A stretch of DNA of 25,127 nucleotides from a virus. Location of the stretch: positions 1 to 25,127 of the IMG/VR virus record IMGVR_UViG_3300025013_000007; one strand, 5' to 3'. Position numbers and translations under genes: made by a program. Numbering within the stretch: position 1 is the first letter of the stretch; each line of letters begins with the position of its first letter. The notes under the pieces are model-generated. The model made no database searches, was not told where the DNA came from, and was given only the letters and a program-made list of their open reading frames with translations. Shown here piece by piece: positions 1 to 21,659 of the stretch.

Positions 1-740
1 CCGACATCCGGAGAGATCTCCTGCCCCGTGAGCGGATCGCGATAAACGGTAACCGCTTGAAGCTCACCTGTCCTCTTTGAGACAAGCCTGTCTTCGGTAG
101 AGAGTTTACCCTTCGAACTTTCAACAGTATGCCCTCTGTCTTTGATATTTTTTTCAGAGAGCGCCCTCACCCGGCAGCGGCAGCGGAAACCGAGCGGCGG
201 ATAGTGAGTATTCCAGAAAGGATCATCTGCCGGAAAAACCTTTCCGTTTAATGAAGCATGCGCCGGTCTTGTGCGTTTGTCCATCACGGCCACATATTGC
301 AGGTATGGACGGTTGTCTACATTGTCCATCTGCTCTTTCCATCTGCCGGCATTGTAAGCTGTCTGAAGATTGGTCTGGTAGATAGTCTTAAGCCGGTGCG
401 GCGAGCCAAGCTGCACTTCCTTTGCGCCGGTCTCATCGCCTAAGAGTTTCTTGCCCCACCACCCCTTTGCCTTGAGCTTAGGCTCCAGCTCTTTTTTGAA
501 CTGCTGAAAGGTGATGCCTTCATCGAGGGCCTTCTTGATCATGTCTCTGATGTCTTGCAGGATGTCCATCCGCATTACTTTTGTGACTGTGAATGCTTTA
601 GCGTGTGCCTCCTGCCATGTGTCCCACCAGTCCCATGAAAAAGTATAGCCCTTACTTTTGAAATACTCTATTGCCTTCGCTGGAGGCAGGCCGATGGCGT
701 AAAGTAGATCAGGCGGATTGGACTTATTCTTTTCCGGCAT
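1..740 (-). CDS. MuF-type phage head morphogenesis protein (Mu gpF/gp30-like), C-terminus cut by window edge
   Basis: The minus frame is open from ATG at 740 to the window edge, giving 246 visible residues. At about residues 150-190 it carries the MuF signature: DKRTRPAHASLNGKVF, then a DDPFW motif, a PPLGF motif and a CRCRV cysteine pair. In Mu and SPP1 relatives this family is a minor capsid protein bound at the portal vertex and needed for head maturation. The N-terminal half is helical and lysine rich, as usual. The start overlaps the last 17 bases of the portal gene, and GGGGA lies upstream as a weak ribosome site, so translation is probably coupled to the portal. The gene continues leftward outside the window. 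The family call is firm; the exact length is unknown. Confidence 0.9.
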   Translation of the reverse strand, partial: MPEKNKSNPPDLLYAIGLPPAKAIEYFKSKGYTFSWDWWDTWQEAHAKAFTVTKVMRMDILQDIRDMIKKALDEGITFQQFKKELEPKLKAKGWWGKKLLGDETGAKEVQLGSPHRLKTIYQTNLQTAYNAGRWKEQMDNVDNRPYLQYVAVMDKRTRPAHASLNGKVFPADDPFWNTHYPPLGFRCRCRVRALSEKNIKDRGHTVESSKGKLSTEDRLVSKRTGELQAVTVYRDPLTGQEISPDV

Positions 741-2289
741 TTAAACGTCCCCACAGTTCACTTACAAATATTGCCCTTGCAATCATATCCTCAACCGATT
801 TTATATCCATGTCCGGATATGTCTCTATGAGCTTTTCCATGACGGCGTTGTAATCGCCGCTCTCGTTGATGAGATCAATGATCGGCTTCAGAACGCCTTT
901 CATCTGAGATTGCAGTTCCTTTGGAGTGATGGAGTCAATAACATCGTCAAGCGCCTGCTGATCAGGGAACGGGGACAGTTCCGAGGGGACTGTCCCAGAT
1001 TTACGGACGCTGTCAGGCGTCGTAGAATCGGGACTGTCCCCGGCCTCCACAAATTCCGCCTGCCCTTTAGCCTTTAGCCCTTCGCCTTCGGCCTGTATCT
1101 CTATATCCTCTTCCTCGAGGCCGTAACTCTTCTGATAATATTTTCTGGACAGTCGCAATCCGGACTTTTCCATAGAGGCAGTGAGACTCTCGTCTCTCGC
1201 TGCAAGGTCTTTATCCACATCCTCTTCTTCCCACATACTGAAGCCCGGAAGCTCGGAGGCGGTGAAATTCAAATCTGCAATCCACTTTATAAGCGTGTTA
1301 AAAGTCTTTTCGACGAGCTTTTCGTCGGCATCTATAATGTCCTTACGGACCTGCATGTGCGACTGCGATGCCGCATAAGAGCCGCCTTTGACCTCTGTCG
1401 ACAGGTTTTGCCCAAGCAGCGCTATTGATACCTCAGCCTTGCAGAATTCCAGAAGCTTTGAGTATATGTCTGCTGATGCGCCTTTTCCGCCCGCCTCTTT
1501 TATGTCTATAGAGGAGTCGTCCGGGATAACGGCTATCGCATCCTGCACCATAGCCTCAAGATTATCGGCAAACTTATCTGTTTCGGCCTGACCTGTTCCT
1601 CTCGGCTGTTTGCCGATCAAAAACGGCATCCCGTATTTTTCAGAGAATATCACCCAGAATTTCATGCCGCCGCGCTTGAAAGTGATAGGCCAGAAACACC
1701 TTGAGAGCGATGGAAAGCCGTAAGGATTCTTATAAGTGGCTTCATGCTGCACGAGCAGAAACTTCTTTTCAGGCACAGGCTCGCCATTGTAATTATTTTT
1801 GGTTCTGAGCCTGAGATCATTATCTTCGCCGAATACAAACCACTCCTGCGGCTTGCCGATGACGGATGCAGGCAGTATGTAATTGCCGACCCTTTCCCAT
1901 ATGACCTCAAGCGCCTGATAGCCGAATAAAGGGGCATTAAGTATTTCGGAGATGATACGCTCAATGTCTAAATTTTTGAAAATATCCTCGATGAGTTTTG
2001 CCTGCCGGGATTTTGCCTTACCCCTGTCTATCGACCACTCAAGCGACAGGACTCCTGACTTTCTGCTTGTCACGCATCCACCGAGATGCGCGTCTACGAG
2101 CATCTCGTTATAGACCGTGATGTCCTTGCCCTGCTTTTTAAGCACGTTATCCGGGTTCGGCAGATACATGCCGAGGGAATAGAAGTCTATCGCTCCCTTT
2201 CTGGTTGCGATCTCCCCTGTGAGAGAGGTATTTTTGTCCGAAAAACTTATAAAAGTCCTATCATTTATCCATAACCCCTTTTTGCCCAT
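724..2289 (-). CDS. Phage portal protein, DUF935 family (Mu gp29-like)
   Basis: This 521-residue protein resembles the DUF935 portal family of Mu-like phages. The N-terminal third has the family layout: a leader, then YNEMLVDAHLGGCVTSRKSG near residues 60-80, and the FGYQALEVIW segment further on. Portals form the dodecameric DNA gate at one capsid vertex and bind the terminase. The start follows a strong AGGAGGT site 6 bases upstream of ATG. Residues 417-435 are encoded by a palindromic repeat (985-1041) shared with the terminase and gp38 genes. The peptide there, GDSPDSTTPDSVRKSGTVP, is low in hydrophobics and sits in a C-terminal linker rich in Gly, Ser, Glu and Pro, after the presumed portal core. 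A helical tail rich in Asp, Glu, Lys and Ile follows. The gene overlaps the MuF gene by 17 bases. Confidence 0.9.
   Translation of the reverse strand: MGKKGLWINDRTFISFSDKNTSLTGEIATRKGAIDFYSLGMYLPNPDNVLKKQGKDITVYNEMLVDAHLGGCVTSRKSGVLSLEWSIDRGKAKSRQAKLIEDIFKNLDIERIISEILNAPLFGYQALEVIWERVGNYILPASVIGKPQEWFVFGEDNDLRLRTKNNYNGEPVPEKKFLLVQHEATYKNPYGFPSLSRCFWPITFKRGGMKFWVIFSEKYGMPFLIGKQPRGTGQAETDKFADNLEAMVQDAIAVIPDDSSIDIKEAGGKGASADIYSKLLEFCKAEVSIALLGQNLSTEVKGGSYAASQSHMQVRKDIIDADEKLVEKTFNTLIKWIADLNFTASELPGFSMWEEEDVDKDLAARDESLTASMEKSGLRLSRKYYQKSYGLEEEDIEIQAEGEGLKAKGQAEFVEAGDSPDSTTPDSVRKSGTVPSELSPFPDQQALDDVIDSITPKELQSQMKGVLKPIIDLINESGDYNAVMEKLIETYPDMDIKSVEDMIARAIFVSELWGRLNAGKE
985..1041. repeat. In-frame palindromic repeat, copy A (57 bp, in portal gene)
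   Basis: On the plus strand it begins GGGGACTGTCCC and ends GGGACTGTCCCC. The outer arms match copies B and C except at the base after the first CCC. The centre is 15 bases instead of 9 and contains its own stem, GACGC/GCGTC around TGTCAG. The length is 57 bp (19 codons). Relative to the host gene it lies in the opposite orientation to copies B and C, yet it still reads without a stop. A further half-site, GGGGACAGTTCC, lies at 971-982, so the disturbed stretch may be 971-1041. Confidence 0.85.
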
Positions 2290-2392
2290 CTATGACCTCC
2301 TCAAAATTTCGCTCCTGACCCTTCCAAAATCTTACAAAAACGACTCAAATCAAAAATGGCTACCTATGTAGCCGTTTGGGGTCTCGACGGCT
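2290..2392 (-). terminator. Terminase-portal spacer with a 6-bp stem and T-run; weak terminator or attenuator candidate
   Basis: This 103-bp spacer on the packaging strand holds one clear structure. Read on the minus strand, GGCTAC-ATAG-GTAGCC (2358-2373) forms a 6-bp stem with a 4-base loop followed by ATTTTTGATTT. The stem is short for an intrinsic terminator, so partial attenuation between terminase and portal is the most that can be suggested. The portal ribosome site AGGAGGT lies at the left end of the spacer. No reading frame of note is present. Confidence 0.3.
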
Positions 2393-3781
2393 TTAAAAGC
2401 CTCTAATTAAGCCGTAACTTTCCCGTCTTTTTCTGCTCGCCGTATTTATCGGGCCGGAAGACTTATCCGACGCTGCATGATTTGCCAGCGCGCAGGCCCA
2501 AAAGCGGTCTGCGTGTCCCCTTGCCTCTGATGCCGCCACATCAAACCTGATATTGCCGGATGTAGTTGTAACCTTCCGAATTGAGCGGAAGTCCTCGCGT
2601 GTCTCAAAATCAGACGGGATATAAAGAAGCCTGTCCTCTATTGAGTTTTTCAGTCCGTAGCCCATATCTTCCTTGGCCGTGTTTGTGAATGTTACAGCCT
2701 CCACGCGGTATTTGCCGAAAGCGTCCTGCGCCTCTTCGCTAAGCTGCATGCCGATGCCGGTGGCGTCAATGCAGAATCTCCTCATGCGCGGATGCTTTAA
2801 TATTTCAAAGAGGGTCTCGCGCTGCACGCTGAAAGGCGTTTTTTCCATTATCTTGACAAGCCGGGTATATTTGACATGGCCGAACTTCTCAATCAGCCAG
2901 ATGACCGAGAGGTCTTTTTTTCTGCCGATGTCCATGCCTCCGTAAAGGTCGCCTGTTGACGGGGACAGTCCCGATTCTACGGCTTGCGCCCGTAAATCAG
3001 GGACAGTCCCCTCCCACAATATGTCATCCCTCTCAACGGATGAAAGCATCTCATAGGTGATAAATGCTGAGGCTTCATCAACAGGTATGCAGCAGTATTC
3101 TTGCAGCCATGTGTTTTCGTCAAAGCAGCTTTCTCTCTGCTCGCGGAGCCACGCCTCTTTTTCTTTATCGGCCGCCTTCCTGCCGAGTATCTTGTCAACA
3201 AGCCCCTGATTAACCGCGTCCTGAATCGTGGTGGTATGCAAAGACCAGTGGAGCTTGCCCTTCTTCACGCCGTCTATAAATTTGTAGTAACGGCAGTTCG
3301 TGCCGTTATGGGTGCTTAATATCCTGAGCGGAAATCCCCATGTGATACACGGCCGCGCGGCAGCCCATAGTCTTTCCTGATCCTCATGCCATGCAAACTC
3401 ATCGAGGATCACCTTGCCGCCTTTCGAACGGAATGCTTTGGGGTTTGAACTGAGGGCGTGTATCTTTGCGCCGTTGGCGAATTCAATTGCAAAGGTCTTA
3501 ATATTCTTAGCGTCATCGAGGACTATCTCGCCGAGGTATTTAGCGGCAGCATTGAAGAGCTTCGTCCATTTCTCTGCGTAGAGTATATATTCCTTGGCGG
3601 CGGATTCATCCGCAGACGAAAACCAGACAGCCGTGACTTTTTTCTTTACGCAGTCACGGACATCTTCATATGACTGGACATAAGAGGCTCCAATGCGCCG
3701 GGACTTTTCCCATATCTTGATAGGGCTTTCGTCTTTGAGCCAGTCAATCTGATATTGGAGAAAATACTTTTTGTCATTCAA
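2393..3781 (-). CDS. Terminase large subunit (Mu gp28-like), packaging ATPase and nuclease
   Basis: This 462-residue protein has the two-domain terminase layout. A degenerate Walker A lies at residues 25-34 (EKSRRIGASY), and Walker B is VILDE at 124-128, followed by FAWHED. The RNase H-like nuclease domain begins near residue 277 with GGMDIGRKKDLSVIW, and CIDATGIG supplies a second acidic motif. The enzyme powers DNA entry through the portal and cuts the packaged DNA. Residues 257-274 (EGTVPDLRAQAVESGLSP) are encoded by repeat copy B and sit exactly in the linker between ATPase and nuclease domains. Its start overlaps the small-terminase-like gene by 8 bases, with GAGG upstream. An AHADRFWACALA helix near the C-terminus is typical of Mu-like terminases. 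Confidence 0.92.
   Translation of the reverse strand: MNDKKYFLQYQIDWLKDESPIKIWEKSRRIGASYVQSYEDVRDCVKKKVTAVWFSSADESAAKEYILYAEKWTKLFNAAAKYLGEIVLDDAKNIKTFAIEFANGAKIHALSSNPKAFRSKGGKVILDEFAWHEDQERLWAAARPCITWGFPLRILSTHNGTNCRYYKFIDGVKKGKLHWSLHTTTIQDAVNQGLVDKILGRKAADKEKEAWLREQRESCFDENTWLQEYCCIPVDEASAFITYEMLSSVERDDILWEGTVPDLRAQAVESGLSPSTGDLYGGMDIGRKKDLSVIWLIEKFGHVKYTRLVKIMEKTPFSVQRETLFEILKHPRMRRFCIDATGIGMQLSEEAQDAFGKYRVEAVTFTNTAKEDMGYGLKNSIEDRLLYIPSDFETREDFRSIRKVTTTSGNIRFDVAASEARGHADRFWACALANHAASDKSSGPINTASRKRRESYGLIRGF
2961..3011. repeat. In-frame palindromic repeat, copy B (51 bp, in terminase gene)
   Basis: The minus strand reads GGGGACTGTCCC at one end and GGGACTGTCCCC at the other, with TACGG/CCGTA forming the inner stem. 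Over 51 bp it differs from copy C at one base only (T instead of G after the first CCC). The encoded residues are identical to those of copy C across 18 positions. The length is a multiple of three, so the reading frame is kept. Confidence 0.9.
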
Positions 3782-4172
3782 TGCCTAAAACCTCTTTCTC
3801 TATATGCTTTACAGCATCTTCCGTCAGCCCTTTTCTTTCGTCCGGCGTTGTCTCATCTTTTATAAGCTTCACGCCCTGATATGACTTAAGCGCGGCGATT
3901 GCTTTGCTCATCGCGTAGATATTGTGCGGCGTGGGATTTGCCTTAGCCTCTTTTATTGTGAGCTTCGCAAGTTCAAGGAGATCTTCCTGCAGGGCTTTAG
4001 TCTCATTGAGGTAGTTTCGTCTCTTTATATCCCACTCCCCCGCGATCTTCCAGTTGTAAAGCGTTTTACGCGAGACTTTATTTGAGAGTATGCCGACGAT
4101 AGCGTCCAGCGATAATCCTTCCTGCACGGAGAGACGCTTTGCCTCATCGTTATAAATCGCGAGTTTAGCCAT
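3774..4172 (-). CDS. Small-terminase-like DNA-binding protein (Mu gp27 position; DUF1804-like)
   Basis: This 132-residue protein starts at MAKLAIYNDEAKRL, where ATG overlaps the upstream stop by 8 bases; an upstream in-frame ATG exists but would run deep into the neighbouring gene. Residues about 10-45 look like a helix-turn-helix: SVQEGLSLDAIVGIL, then VSRKTLYNWKIAGEW. The rest is a charged helical region (LLELAKLTIKEAKAN...). This layout matches small terminase subunits and DUF1804 proteins, which recognise phage DNA and hand it to the large subunit. Position directly before, and 8-base overlap with, the large terminase supports the role. Assignment rests on the HTH and on synteny; the exact family is not certain. 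Confidence 0.78.
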   Translation of the reverse strand: MAKLAIYNDEAKRLSVQEGLSLDAIVGILSNKVSRKTLYNWKIAGEWDIKRRNYLNETKALQEDLLELAKLTIKEAKANPTPHNIYAMSKAIAALKSYQGVKLIKDETTPDERKGLTEDAVKHIEKEVLGIE

Positions 4173-4410
4173 TGAGGTCTTTCTCCATCCGCGCGATCTG
4201 AGCTTTAAGCTCCCTCCCCTCGGCGCAGAGGCGGTTAAAGTCATTGACGATTACTACTGCGCGGTCAATATCGATAGTCGTGAAATCCTCGGTGTAAGGA
4301 TCGAAGATGTCCCGTAAGACGATAATGTAAGAGTCTGCCCTGCGATTCATCTCCTCCAGCGATTTCTTTTTTTCTGCGCGGCGGGCTTTAAGTAAAAGGA
4401 CTTCATTCAT
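4165..4410 (-). CDS. Small helical protein in the Mu gp26 position, function unknown
   Basis: This 81-residue protein starts at MNEVLLLKARRAEKKK. The start ATG overlaps the stop of the upstream membrane-protein gene as ATGA, and GGAGGT sits about 8 bases before it, which decides against the longer in-frame start upstream. It is predicted almost wholly helical, with an N-terminal Lys/Arg-rich coil (residues 9-25) and a C-terminal coil (RELKAQIARMEKD). I do not recognise a family. Small helical proteins in this place (Mu gp26) are encoded next to the terminase genes and are poorly characterised. It overlaps the small-terminase-like gene by 8 bases, so the four packaging genes are translationally linked. 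Confidence 0.72.
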   Translation of the reverse strand: MNEVLLLKARRAEKKKSLEEMNRRADSYIIVLRDIFDPYTEDFTTIDIDRAVVIVNDFNRLCAEGRELKAQIARMEKDLNG

Positions 4411-4730
4411 TCGGTTACCTCCAGCTTGAGCTTTTTCCCGGTCATAAGGATGGGACATTGCGCGGGTGTTTCGATCTTGATGGATATTCTGTCGAGGATG
4501 CCGGTGAGGATCGTTTTGTATTCCTGCTCGTCCCGCAGGTATTGCAGAAGCTGCTCGTTCAGCTTCGTATGCTTTTCAAACGCCTCGGCGCTCTGCGACA
4601 ACGACTGCTGCAGGAAACTATCTGTCTGTTTGCTCGACTTAGTAAAGGTGAAATACCAGATTATAAAAACGACTATTGCGACGCCTCCCTGAATAATAAA
4701 CTGCAATATTTCTTTCAGTCCCATTTCCAT
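4407..4730 (-). CDS. Membrane-anchored coiled-coil protein in the Mu gp25 position
   Basis: This 107-residue protein is the first gene of the minus-strand packaging operon. Start MEMGLKEI is chosen because AGGAGGGCGGGC lies directly upstream; a longer in-frame ATG lacks this. One transmembrane segment lies at about residues 9-27 (LQFIIQGGVAIVVFIIWYF). A polar helix with coiled-coil character follows (KQTDSFLQQSLSQSAEAFEK...). The C-terminus has QCPILMTGKKLKLEVTE. This layout fits the DUF2730/gp25 type found at this place in Mu, and a holin-like or anchoring role cannot be excluded. The stop overlaps the next gene as ATGA. Confidence 0.7.
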   Translation of the reverse strand: MEMGLKEILQFIIQGGVAIVVFIIWYFTFTKSSKQTDSFLQQSLSQSAEAFEKHTKLNEQLLQYLRDEQEYKTILTGILDRISIKIETPAQCPILMTGKKLKLEVTE

Positions 4731-4859
4731 GCCCGCCCTCCTAATAAATTTTCCTCTCAATCTTACCTTTTAAAATTGTTTCGCTCTCCCGAACGGTTCA
4801 GGAGAACCGATTAAAACCTTCCGGTAAGATGAGAGCATGAAACTGAGAAAGGAGGGTTT
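4731..4859. promoter_or_regulatory. Divergent late control region with mirrored GGTAAGAT boxes and a central palindrome
   Basis: This 129-bp gap separates the minus packaging operon from the plus capsid/tail operon. GGTAAGAT occurs at 4823-4830 on the plus strand and, inverted, at 4760-4767 for the minus strand. Each box ends exactly 29 bases before its own ATG (4860 and 4730), and each is followed by GAGAG (one extra T in the minus copy). TAAGAT resembles a -10 hexamer, and TTAAAA lies just upstream of both boxes. Between them is a perfect 6-bp palindrome, CGGTTC-AGGA-GAACCG (4794-4809), a candidate operator. No convincing -35 is visible, which would fit activator-dependent late promoters like those Mu activates with C. 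Both leaders end in a GGAGGG ribosome site. Confidence 0.6.
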
Positions 4860-20209: not shown

Positions 20210-20623
20210 ATGATAGCGTATAAAAAACAGGTTGATGGTCAGGCTACAGACTTGAGGTTTGTTCAGGATGATTATGTGTCGGAGGTAGGAGAAATAGTAA
20301 TTGAGGGCGATGTGCTGCCGCAGATAGAAACCCTGCATGCTTTAAACTATCTGAAGATTTTAAAAATCGTAAAGTTTAAATCTGAAGCCGCACGGCGAAT
20401 AGATGCCGTGTTGCCTGATTGGAAGGCTAACAGGCACAGAGATCAGCTTGAATTGGGAGCATCTACTACTCTCTCGGCAGAGGGATACGCAGCAAAACAG
20501 CAGAAAAGACAGGCCATTAGAGACGCCTCGAATACCATCGAGGCTGAGATTCAGGCACTCAATGAGCCTGCCGAGATTGAAACATTAGATATTGCGAATC
20601 ATCCGGCTTGGCCGGTGGAATAA
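20210..20623 (+). CDS. Probable tail fibre assembly or fibre-tip-associated protein
   Basis: This 137-residue protein has GGGAGGGG before ATG and follows the fibre gene directly. The first half has short strands (AYKKQVDGQATDLRFVQDDY). The second half is helical (ARRIDAVLPDWKANRHRDQL, then QKRQAIRDASNTIEAEIQAL). It ends with NHPAWP. Small partly helical proteins in this place are usually fibre chaperones. I do not recognise an exact family, so the role is inferred from position. The helical segment with a WK..RHRDQ motif resembles the C-terminal part of some fibre assembly proteins. Confidence 0.6.
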   Translation: MIAYKKQVDGQATDLRFVQDDYVSEVGEIVIEGDVLPQIETLHALNYLKILKIVKFKSEAARRIDAVLPDWKANRHRDQLELGASTTLSAEGYAAKQQKRQAIRDASNTIEAEIQALNEPAEIETLDIANHPAWPVE

Positions 20624-20770
20624 GCGGACAGCAGTCCGGGGAGTTAGAGCCTCCCTAAACCTCAATGTTGACGCATTGAGACGGGATAACCCGCTACCAT
20701 CCGCTACCCGCGCGACGGGCGGATATATTGTGGCAGGGGAGTCCCTAAAAATTCAATTTAGGGAGGCTCT
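20624..20770 (+). ncRNA. Highly structured 147-nt leader of the methyltransferase gene; candidate regulatory RNA
   Basis: This gene-free stretch is packed with hairpins. A perfect 14-bp inverted repeat joins 20646-20659 (AGAGCCTCCCTAAA) to 20757-20770, whose last base touches the ATG. Inside lie CTCAATG/CATTGAG (20661-20680), CGGG/CCCG around ATAA (20682-20693), and CCG..CCCG/CGGGCGG (20701-20722). TCCCTAAA (20742-20749) can pair instead with TTTAGGGA (20757-20764). CGGAC/GTCCG (20625-20638) precedes them. The ribosome site GGGAGG (20761-20766) is inside the 3' strand in either fold, so translation could be switched. No known riboswitch class is recognised. A small mobile palindromic element is the alternative. 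Confidence 0.6.
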
Positions 20771-21553
20771 ATGAAAAACAGTTTTATTGCTTGGGTAGGC
20801 GGGAAAAGGCTTTTGAGGAAAAGGATAATAGCGATGATGCCGGAGCATCACTGCTACGTGGAAGTATTCGGCGGAGGAGGATGGGTCTTATTCGGCAAAC
20901 AGCCCTCTCCGGTTGAGGTCTATAACGATATAAACTCAAACCTCGTTACGCTCTTCAGGGTTGTCAAATTAATGCTTCCTCTCTTTATAAAGCGATTGGA
21001 CATGCTTTTAAAGTCCAGAGAGGAATACAACGCCTTTCAACAGGCGCTTAAGACCGGAATCTTTAAGAACGATATGGATAGGGCTATAGCGTTTTATTAT
21101 TGTATTAAGAACAGTTTCGGCAGCGGCATCACAACCGGCTGGGCATTCAGCCCTACACAGCCTCCAAGAAAGTGCGTAACAGGAGACCTTAAATCGGCTC
21201 ATGAGCGCCTGAAAAATGTCTATATAGATAATCTTCCATTTGAGAGGCTCATCCATAACTGGGATCGTAAAAACTCTTTATTTTACTGTGACCCTCCATA
21301 TTGGATGCTCATAGAAAAGAAAGGGAAGTCGTATTATCAGTACACCTTTACTGCTCAGGATCACGAACGCTTAAGGGATATGCTGAAAGGGATTGAGGGA
21401 AAGGTCATAATATCGTATGACGATCACCCTGTAATCCGGAAACTTTACAGGAAATTTAACATTCACGAGACCGGGCCGATACTTTACACTATGAATAACC
21501 GTCGAAACACTCCGGAACGGAGGGTCGGAGAGTTGATTATAACTAACTTTTAA
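20771..21553 (+). CDS. Dam-type adenine-N6 DNA methyltransferase
   Basis: This 260-residue protein has the alpha-class layout. SFIAWVGGKRLLRKRII and VEVFGGGGWVLFGK (about residues 31-44) form the AdoMet site. The target-recognition region follows, and the catalytic DPPY is at residues 174-177 (FYCDPPYWM). GKVIISYDDHP follows, near residues 212-222. It transfers methyl groups from AdoMet to adenine, most often in GATC for this family, but specificity cannot be read here. In phages it protects DNA from restriction or affects packaging and gene control, as Mu mom does by another chemistry. The SD is 4 bases from ATG and buried in the leader structure. It is an accessory gene inserted after the fibre module. 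Confidence 0.92.
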   Translation: MKNSFIAWVGGKRLLRKRIIAMMPEHHCYVEVFGGGGWVLFGKQPSPVEVYNDINSNLVTLFRVVKLMLPLFIKRLDMLLKSREEYNAFQQALKTGIFKNDMDRAIAFYYCIKNSFGSGITTGWAFSPTQPPRKCVTGDLKSAHERLKNVYIDNLPFERLIHNWDRKNSLFYCDPPYWMLIEKKGKSYYQYTFTAQDHERLRDMLKGIEGKVIISYDDHPVIRKLYRKFNIHETGPILYTMNNRRNTPERRVGELIITNF

Positions 21554-21659
21554 GGCCGTTTTTAAGAGGGATAACAGGCAGAATGGGATAAAAATTCTCA
21601 AACTGCCTGTTAAGAATTCTCAAACTGGGTGTTAAGTTATAACGGGCTCGCGGGCATGG
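21554..21659 (+). promoter_or_regulatory. Spacer after methyltransferase with hairpin and repeats; possible promoter or operator
   Basis: This 106-bp gap holds AACAGGCA (21573-21580) pairing with TGCCTGTT (21604-21611), with GAAT/ATTC inside it. It also holds the tandem 22-bp repeats and a GTTATAAC palindrome (21636-21643). No T-run follows the hairpin, so a terminator is unlikely. TATAAC at 21638 could serve as a -10, but no good -35 is placed before it. No ribosome site is seen for the next gene. Confidence 0.4.
21593..21636. repeat. Tandem 22-bp direct repeat
   Basis: Two adjacent units each read AATTCTCAAACTG, two variable bases (CC, then GG), and TGTTAAG. They are contiguous at 21593-21614 and 21615-21636. 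Twenty of 22 positions agree. Confidence 0.8.

Follow-up and report, generated by a model that had tools for sequence, protein, structure and literature searches.

A predicted, conserved small RNA antisense to the leader of a phage DNA methyltransferase gene

Analysis of a 25,127-nt stretch of viral DNA (the window; IMG/VR record IMGVR_UViG_3300025013_000007, itself a fragment) indicates that the minus strand encodes a predicted small RNA of about 100 nt, antisense to the leader of a methyltransferase gene, an assignment that is well supported by comparison with homologous loci. We consider this minus-strand gene very probably real. Its strand, promoter and fold, its linkage to DNA-modification genes and a co-varying anti-RBS segment in the opposing leader all emerge from comparison of related sequences.

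The contig belongs to a Mu-like phage, as judged from profile matches to portal, Mu-like protease, Mu gp36 and tail genes. Its terminase and portal genes (724-4244) run on minus, whereas the capsid and tail genes (4860 onward) run on plus. The gene downstream of the element (20771-21553, plus) encodes a D12-class N6-adenine DNA methyltransferase of 260 residues (PF02086, E 2.3e-26; phrog_56, E 5.8e-71). The DNA-modification genes of Mu-like phages do harm if switched on early, and their control is tight, mom of phage Mu being the textbook case. A search with the tail-fibre-assembly-like ORF upstream of the element returned no relatives, and the 60-residue ORF overlying the element (20592-20774) is without a Pfam match. 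Directly 3' of the methyltransferase, at 21572-21632, there is a 17-nt inverted repeat (82%) together with tandem 22-nt direct repeats, TAAAAATTCTCAAACTGCCTGT / TAAGAATTCTCAAACTGGGTGT.

The nearest relatives of the methyltransferase in IMG/VR, at loci L013 (83% over the first 38 residues) and L002 (66%), are preceded by recognisable versions of the element. The family was gathered with the 16-mer GGGATAACCCGCTACC and further seeds and then with covariance models; as the seeds were exact, conservation inside them is partly by construction. The covariance models added loci from Nitrospinota genomes and from one Planctomycetota contig, beyond which no element was found in 294 Planctomycetota genomes. 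There are 66 distinct loci, comprising the 61 sequences of alignment A4 and L142, L154, L158, L160 and L161. Neither the plus nor the minus model matched the dam leaders of the cultured phages KS9, B3, PhiKM, VP882, AM106 and MuM16-1, and no nucleotide match to the element was found among phage or plasmid records.

The loci lie in phages and prophages, where the element sits directly upstream of DNA-modification genes. The genes on its 5' side are varied, many of them stopping within about 20 nt of it, and with few exceptions a D12 methyltransferase follows on its 3' side, in many cases as the final gene of the record. Elsewhere the downstream gene encodes a DAM-like plus GNAT enzyme (PF22555, PF22559; L097) or an N6/N4 methylase (PF01555; L093 and L137), or a com-like gene intervenes before a D12 enzyme (L038, L047, L051 and L121) or a C5 enzyme (PF00145; L160, its com read by eye). 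A com-like gene, called from its position and from weak matches to the phrog_6417 profile (E about 1e-5 to 1e-6), separates element and methyltransferase in six relatives. Because the enzymes downstream of this RNA thus belong to at least four Pfam families (D12, DAM-like plus GNAT, N6/N4 and C5), autoregulation by the methyltransferase, which the initial annotation had raised, is unlikely. Retention of the core after loss of the methyltransferase, as in L119 and L122, suggests that it has a role of its own.

Sequence comparison assigns the conserved fold to the strand opposite the methyltransferase mRNA. Our first model, an aptamer-like leader on the plus strand with a competing hairpin, an RBS stem and pseudoknots, showed strong covariation. 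It was given up once the G-U/A-C test and the folding of each strand had placed the core on minus and the presumed partner in the pseudoknot had turned out to be promoter sequence. Among the changed pairs of the core stems, A-C is far commoner than G-U on the plus strand, and A-C on that strand is G-U on the other; related sequences and a single variable position in P4 account for part of this excess, so that the count by itself is suggestive. The core folds to lower energy on the minus strand in 55 of 55 members, with a better shuffle-corrected z in all 30 tested (median -4.7, versus -2.9 on plus). For the same 102 nt of the window the values are -48.3 kcal/mol (z -5.1) on minus and -37.3 kcal/mol (z -2.75) on plus. 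Distant members score higher with the minus-strand covariance model than with the plus model, and of 77 Nitrospinota genomes the former detects six and the latter three. The sense-strand wobble pattern of a plus-strand riboswitch or cis-acting leader was thus not observed: A-C exceeds G-U, and it is the minus strand that folds better. A striking leader fold can, in other words, be the shadow of an RNA encoded on the opposite strand.

The predicted small-RNA gene spans about 102 nt (20618-20720, minus), as judged from covariance model R2 (match at 20612-20711, minus; 76.8 bits), the minus-strand fold and covariation. It is read from right to left, and its ends are estimates, with the start at about 20719-20720 and the end at about 20618; by position it lies opposite the leader of the gene that begins at 20771. 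The minus-strand fold is a stacked four-way junction with three hairpins, closed by a stem of 10 bp and with little unpaired sequence at the junction. In the closing stem, P1, defined by covariation and folding, the 5' strand (20695-20704) pairs with 20624-20633, which leads into the T-rich end at 20618-20623; an internal loop in the plus-strand version of this stem becomes tandem U-G/G-U pairs on minus. The hairpins, each seen in both the covariation and the RNAalifold analysis, are P5 (20682-20693, minus; CGGG-UUAU-CCCG), P4 (20661-20680, minus), which is the most variable in sequence and has double changes in six of its six pairs, and P2 (20639-20655, minus), to which the arm-swap test also applies and whose 5' arm and loop hold a copy of the methyltransferase RBS region.

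The covariation that the initial annotation proposed to look for in homologous leaders is present. Over 61 sequences, 94.5% of the cells of the minus fold are paired and both-side changes occur at 19 of 26 pairs; double-change cells number 122, whereas shuffles give 30.7 +/- 4.7 and slid controls never more than 44. RNAalifold, run without a given structure, returns essentially the same minus fold (28 pairs, 21 with double changes). All four helices appear in the unconstrained minimum-energy fold of 54 of 60 members on minus, versus 42 of 60 on plus. The divergent L002 and L137 fold like the rest of the family, and of five members folded singly only the com-type L121 prefers another structure. 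Across diverse phages the sequence and fold of the core are near-invariant.

The conserved plus-strand "tail" of the element is, to judge by its consensus, a leftward sigma-70 promoter on the minus strand. The conserved plus-strand string TATAGCAGGGttACTCCCatAAATCAA reads on minus as TTGATTT-atGGGAGTaaCCCTGC-TATA, that is, a -35 element, a spacer, an extended TG and a -10 element. A strict pattern for this promoter is matched by 57 of 62 sequences, of which 55 begin with a TTG-like -35 (consensus TTGa); the spacer is of 17 bp in 43 members and 18 bp in 14, and in the 17-bp class the information content is about 1 bit per base inside the promoter and about 0.3 outside it on either side. In the window, the -35 element is TTGAAT (20751-20756, minus), followed after an 18-bp spacer by the extended TG and -10, TGC CACAAT (20727-20735, minus; family consensus TGnTAtaaN). 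This -10 is degenerate, C replacing the first T of CACAAT, and the promoter, which matches at 8 of 12 positions in all, falls below the threshold of a simple promoter scan and is therefore not listed there. In all family members the spacer (20736-20750 in the window) contains a conserved dyad, GGG...CCC, which may be an operator through which the small RNA is regulated. On the minus strand, T makes up 57% of the 8 nt past the closing stem, versus 27% further on, with at least five T in 9 nt in 43 of 61 sequences. L137 has a run of seven T at the small-RNA end; the U-run of the window, CTTATT, is weak.

On the plus strand, the perfect 14-bp inverted repeat of the initial annotation is real and one pair longer, 20645-20659 (the anti-RBS segment) being complementary to 20757-20771 (the RBS arm) at 15 of 15 positions, with 97 nt between them. 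As had also been described, the 3' arm holds the ribosome site, GGGAGG (20760-20765), and reaches the A of the ATG at 20771. The plus strand of 20624-20775 folds to -72.8 kcal/mol, compared with -46.0 +/- 4.25 for 200 dinucleotide shuffles (z -6.3), none of which is as low. Of the two competing folds that had been proposed, one rests on TCCCTAAA (20742-20749), which does complement 20757-20764 in the window, but this pairing does not co-vary (z 0.2); family-wide, only the long stem over the RBS does (own versus swapped arms, z 8.9). That covariation (z 8-10) extends past the Shine-Dalgarno (SD) core, the extension alone giving z 8.0 (0/2000), and z is about 8 after redundancy reduction. Being wobble-neutral, it indicates that the two arms evolve together but does not directly prove that they pair in the mRNA. 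The L082 clade differs in that CATGCGAT, an arm of P4, is paired with ATCGCATG across the start codon; L002 uses the other P4 arm for this. The SD is predicted to be less open in leaders with the element than in those of D12 genes without it (median 0.21 versus 0.39, P 0.004). The RBS of the modification gene is thus predicted to be masked by a stem, and this stem co-varies. The earlier view is supported to the extent that a conserved, co-varying structure is predicted to mask the RBS of a phage Dam-type gene; that the element is simply a leader acting in cis, whether riboswitch or protein-binding, is not supported, since its conserved hairpins are better explained by an RNA from the opposite strand with its own conserved promoter.

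The anti-RBS segment of the leader is the complement of the predicted small RNA, which therefore carries a copy of the RBS region. In the explanation that we somewhat favour as a whole, the RBS is freed when the small RNA captures the anti-RBS segment. The methyltransferase mRNA would presumably arise by read-through from the tail genes; because its leader carries the anti-RBS segment, which would mask the RBS, the bare mRNA would be closed. The promoter directly upstream of the RBS would drive a leftward small RNA of about 100 nt ending at the U-run, which, starting 5' of the RBS, would leave it uncovered. Being the exact complement of the anti-RBS segment, this RNA would pair with the leader and occupy that segment, and with the segment captured the RBS would be freed and translation of the modification gene would open. 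We infer that the RNA is produced, where exactly it begins and ends, and that it regulates the neighbouring gene, which we regard as likely; we lean towards activation, by freeing of the RBS, as the manner in which it does so.

Counting against this explanation are the degenerate -10 and weak U-run of the window, the wobble neutrality of the anti-RBS covariation, and a degree of conservation in the core that exceeds what a simple antisense RNA would require. The near-invariance of the core across diverse phages, retention of the fold in the two loci lacking the methyltransferase and the linkage to anti-restriction-type genes of different families speak for a small RNA that works mainly in trans, on a protein or RNA of host or phage, perhaps within an anti-restriction cassette, and that overlaps the leader as a matter of packing. 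Such a role is possible, if rather improbable; it leaves unexplained both the covariation of the leader segment with the RBS and the fixed position directly 5' of the modification gene. That the conserved four-way junction is a trans-acting RNA part of anti-restriction cassettes and also sets translation of the modification enzyme through its RBS copy seems to us doubtful. Transcription of the minus strand could alternatively repress the modification gene, either because the two transcripts converge or because RNase III cuts the duplex, in a way similar to the action of reverse promoters on EcoRI, with the anti-RBS stem as an additional lock. The antisense orientation and the position of the promoter would suit repression, for which there are precedents in EcoRI Rna0 and symR (PMC3874152) and in momP2 (PMC4287176). 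We nevertheless think it unlikely: the small RNA begins 5' of the RBS, which it leaves uncovered, and repression alone gives no reason for an RBS copy in the RNA.

The plus-strand leader might itself be the functional RNA, riboswitch-like or protein-binding, with a hairpin (20638-20643/20651-20656) that competes with the RBS stem. The plus-strand pairs do co-vary; when the window is folded stepwise, the local hairpin appears first and the RBS stem only at the end; and the probability of this hairpin is near 1 in truncated leaders of most members. Any minus fold, however, leaves identical covariation on plus, the tests of strand point to minus, and the minus-strand promoter occupies the conserved 3' part. 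We judge this reading very improbable. A small mobile element with terminal inverted repeats, suggested by the perfect 15-bp repeats with TA at their ends and entertained in the initial annotation, is hardly credible. The arms vary between phages; of 24 other contigs with the exact 15-mer none has the partner arm or the core; the record holds a single copy; homology runs on into the modification gene; and copies adjoin DNA-modification or com genes. Copies with conserved ends at unrelated sites, as expected of a miniature inverted-repeat element, were not found.

In outline, the element would work like the control of Mu mom or of EcoRI. In Mu, Com is a translational activator and translation of mom depends upon it. 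As in com-mom, the modification gene is near the right end of a Mu-like genome, its RBS appears masked by a stem and a leftward promoter lies beside it, and six relatives have a com-like gene; unlike com-mom, the main-type records searched have no Com homologue. PF10122 (Com) gave nothing above cut-off in 17 records, the window being a fragment, and apart from two weak, distant matches phrog_6417 (Com) was found only in com-type records and in B3, which served as control. Dependence on Com was considered and rejected, the main-type records being without it. Mom has divergent promoters, momP1 and momP2 (PMC4287176); the leftward transcript here is predicted to be a conserved structured RNA, which that of momP2 is not known to be. 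Com is covered by references given in PMC4287176 and PMC4461284.

EcoRI is controlled by Rna0, an 88-nt antisense RNA from a reverse promoter (PMC3874152). The element resembles it in having, as predicted, a short antisense RNA and a reverse promoter beside a DNA-methyltransferase gene; Rna0, in contrast, acts negatively and within the endonuclease gene, whereas here a fold is conserved across many phages. We know of no relation in sequence or fold between the two. In symE-symR, an antisense RNA from a reverse promoter overlaps the mRNA leader (PMC3874152). The predicted RNA shares these features, but SymR covers the Shine-Dalgarno sequence, whereas the RNA described here starts 5' of it and leaves it uncovered. 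C4 is complementary to an RBS region, and the element is likewise a compact phage regulatory RNA with such complementarity. C4 is the antisense RNA of phages P1 and P7 (RF01695; PMC2864571). Unlike C4, which is read in the direction of its target, the RNA here is read in the opposite direction, and neither of its strands has an Rfam match.

As the initial annotation had it, no known RNA class is recognised. Rfam release 15 gave no match at the gathering score on either strand of the window and ten homologue loci, C4 and riboswitches included, nor any match down to E 10 for three leaders. The conserved fold is described nowhere in the literature searched, absence there being no proof of absence overall, and a D12-methyltransferase-associated RNA motif was looked for there by name and not found, all Rfam models having been scanned instead. 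We regard the small RNA as previously unlisted. Membership in the Mu mom or EcoRI type is not supported, given the lack of Com in main-type records, of an Rfam match and of a description of the fold in the literature searched. If the proposed mechanism is true, a conserved antisense RNA gene would constitute a second, widespread route of control for phages with different modification enzymes, and would add an RNA component to anti-restriction loci. Whether a masking segment can be captured by an RNA copy of the ribosome site would also become clearly testable.

Some individual loci show further features. L069 has two copies of the element (1773-1917 and 4587-4739), each followed by the start of a D12 methyltransferase; in the first, the P2/P1 side has given way to foreign sequence, which looks like the result of recombination with a tail-fibre cassette. 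L103 (2076-2150) and L113 (3265-3376) retain only one half of the element and continue into unrelated DNA, which in L113 includes a long perfect hairpin. The 85-residue protein with CxxC pairs encoded between the element and the N6/N4 methylase of L093 (2468-2725, minus) is possibly a Com analogue. The com-type loci L038, L047, L051 and L121 have a separate hairpin of their own at the methyltransferase RBS, between com and the methyltransferase (in L038, for example, AATACCTC...GAGGTATT), which is of the type expected of a Com target.
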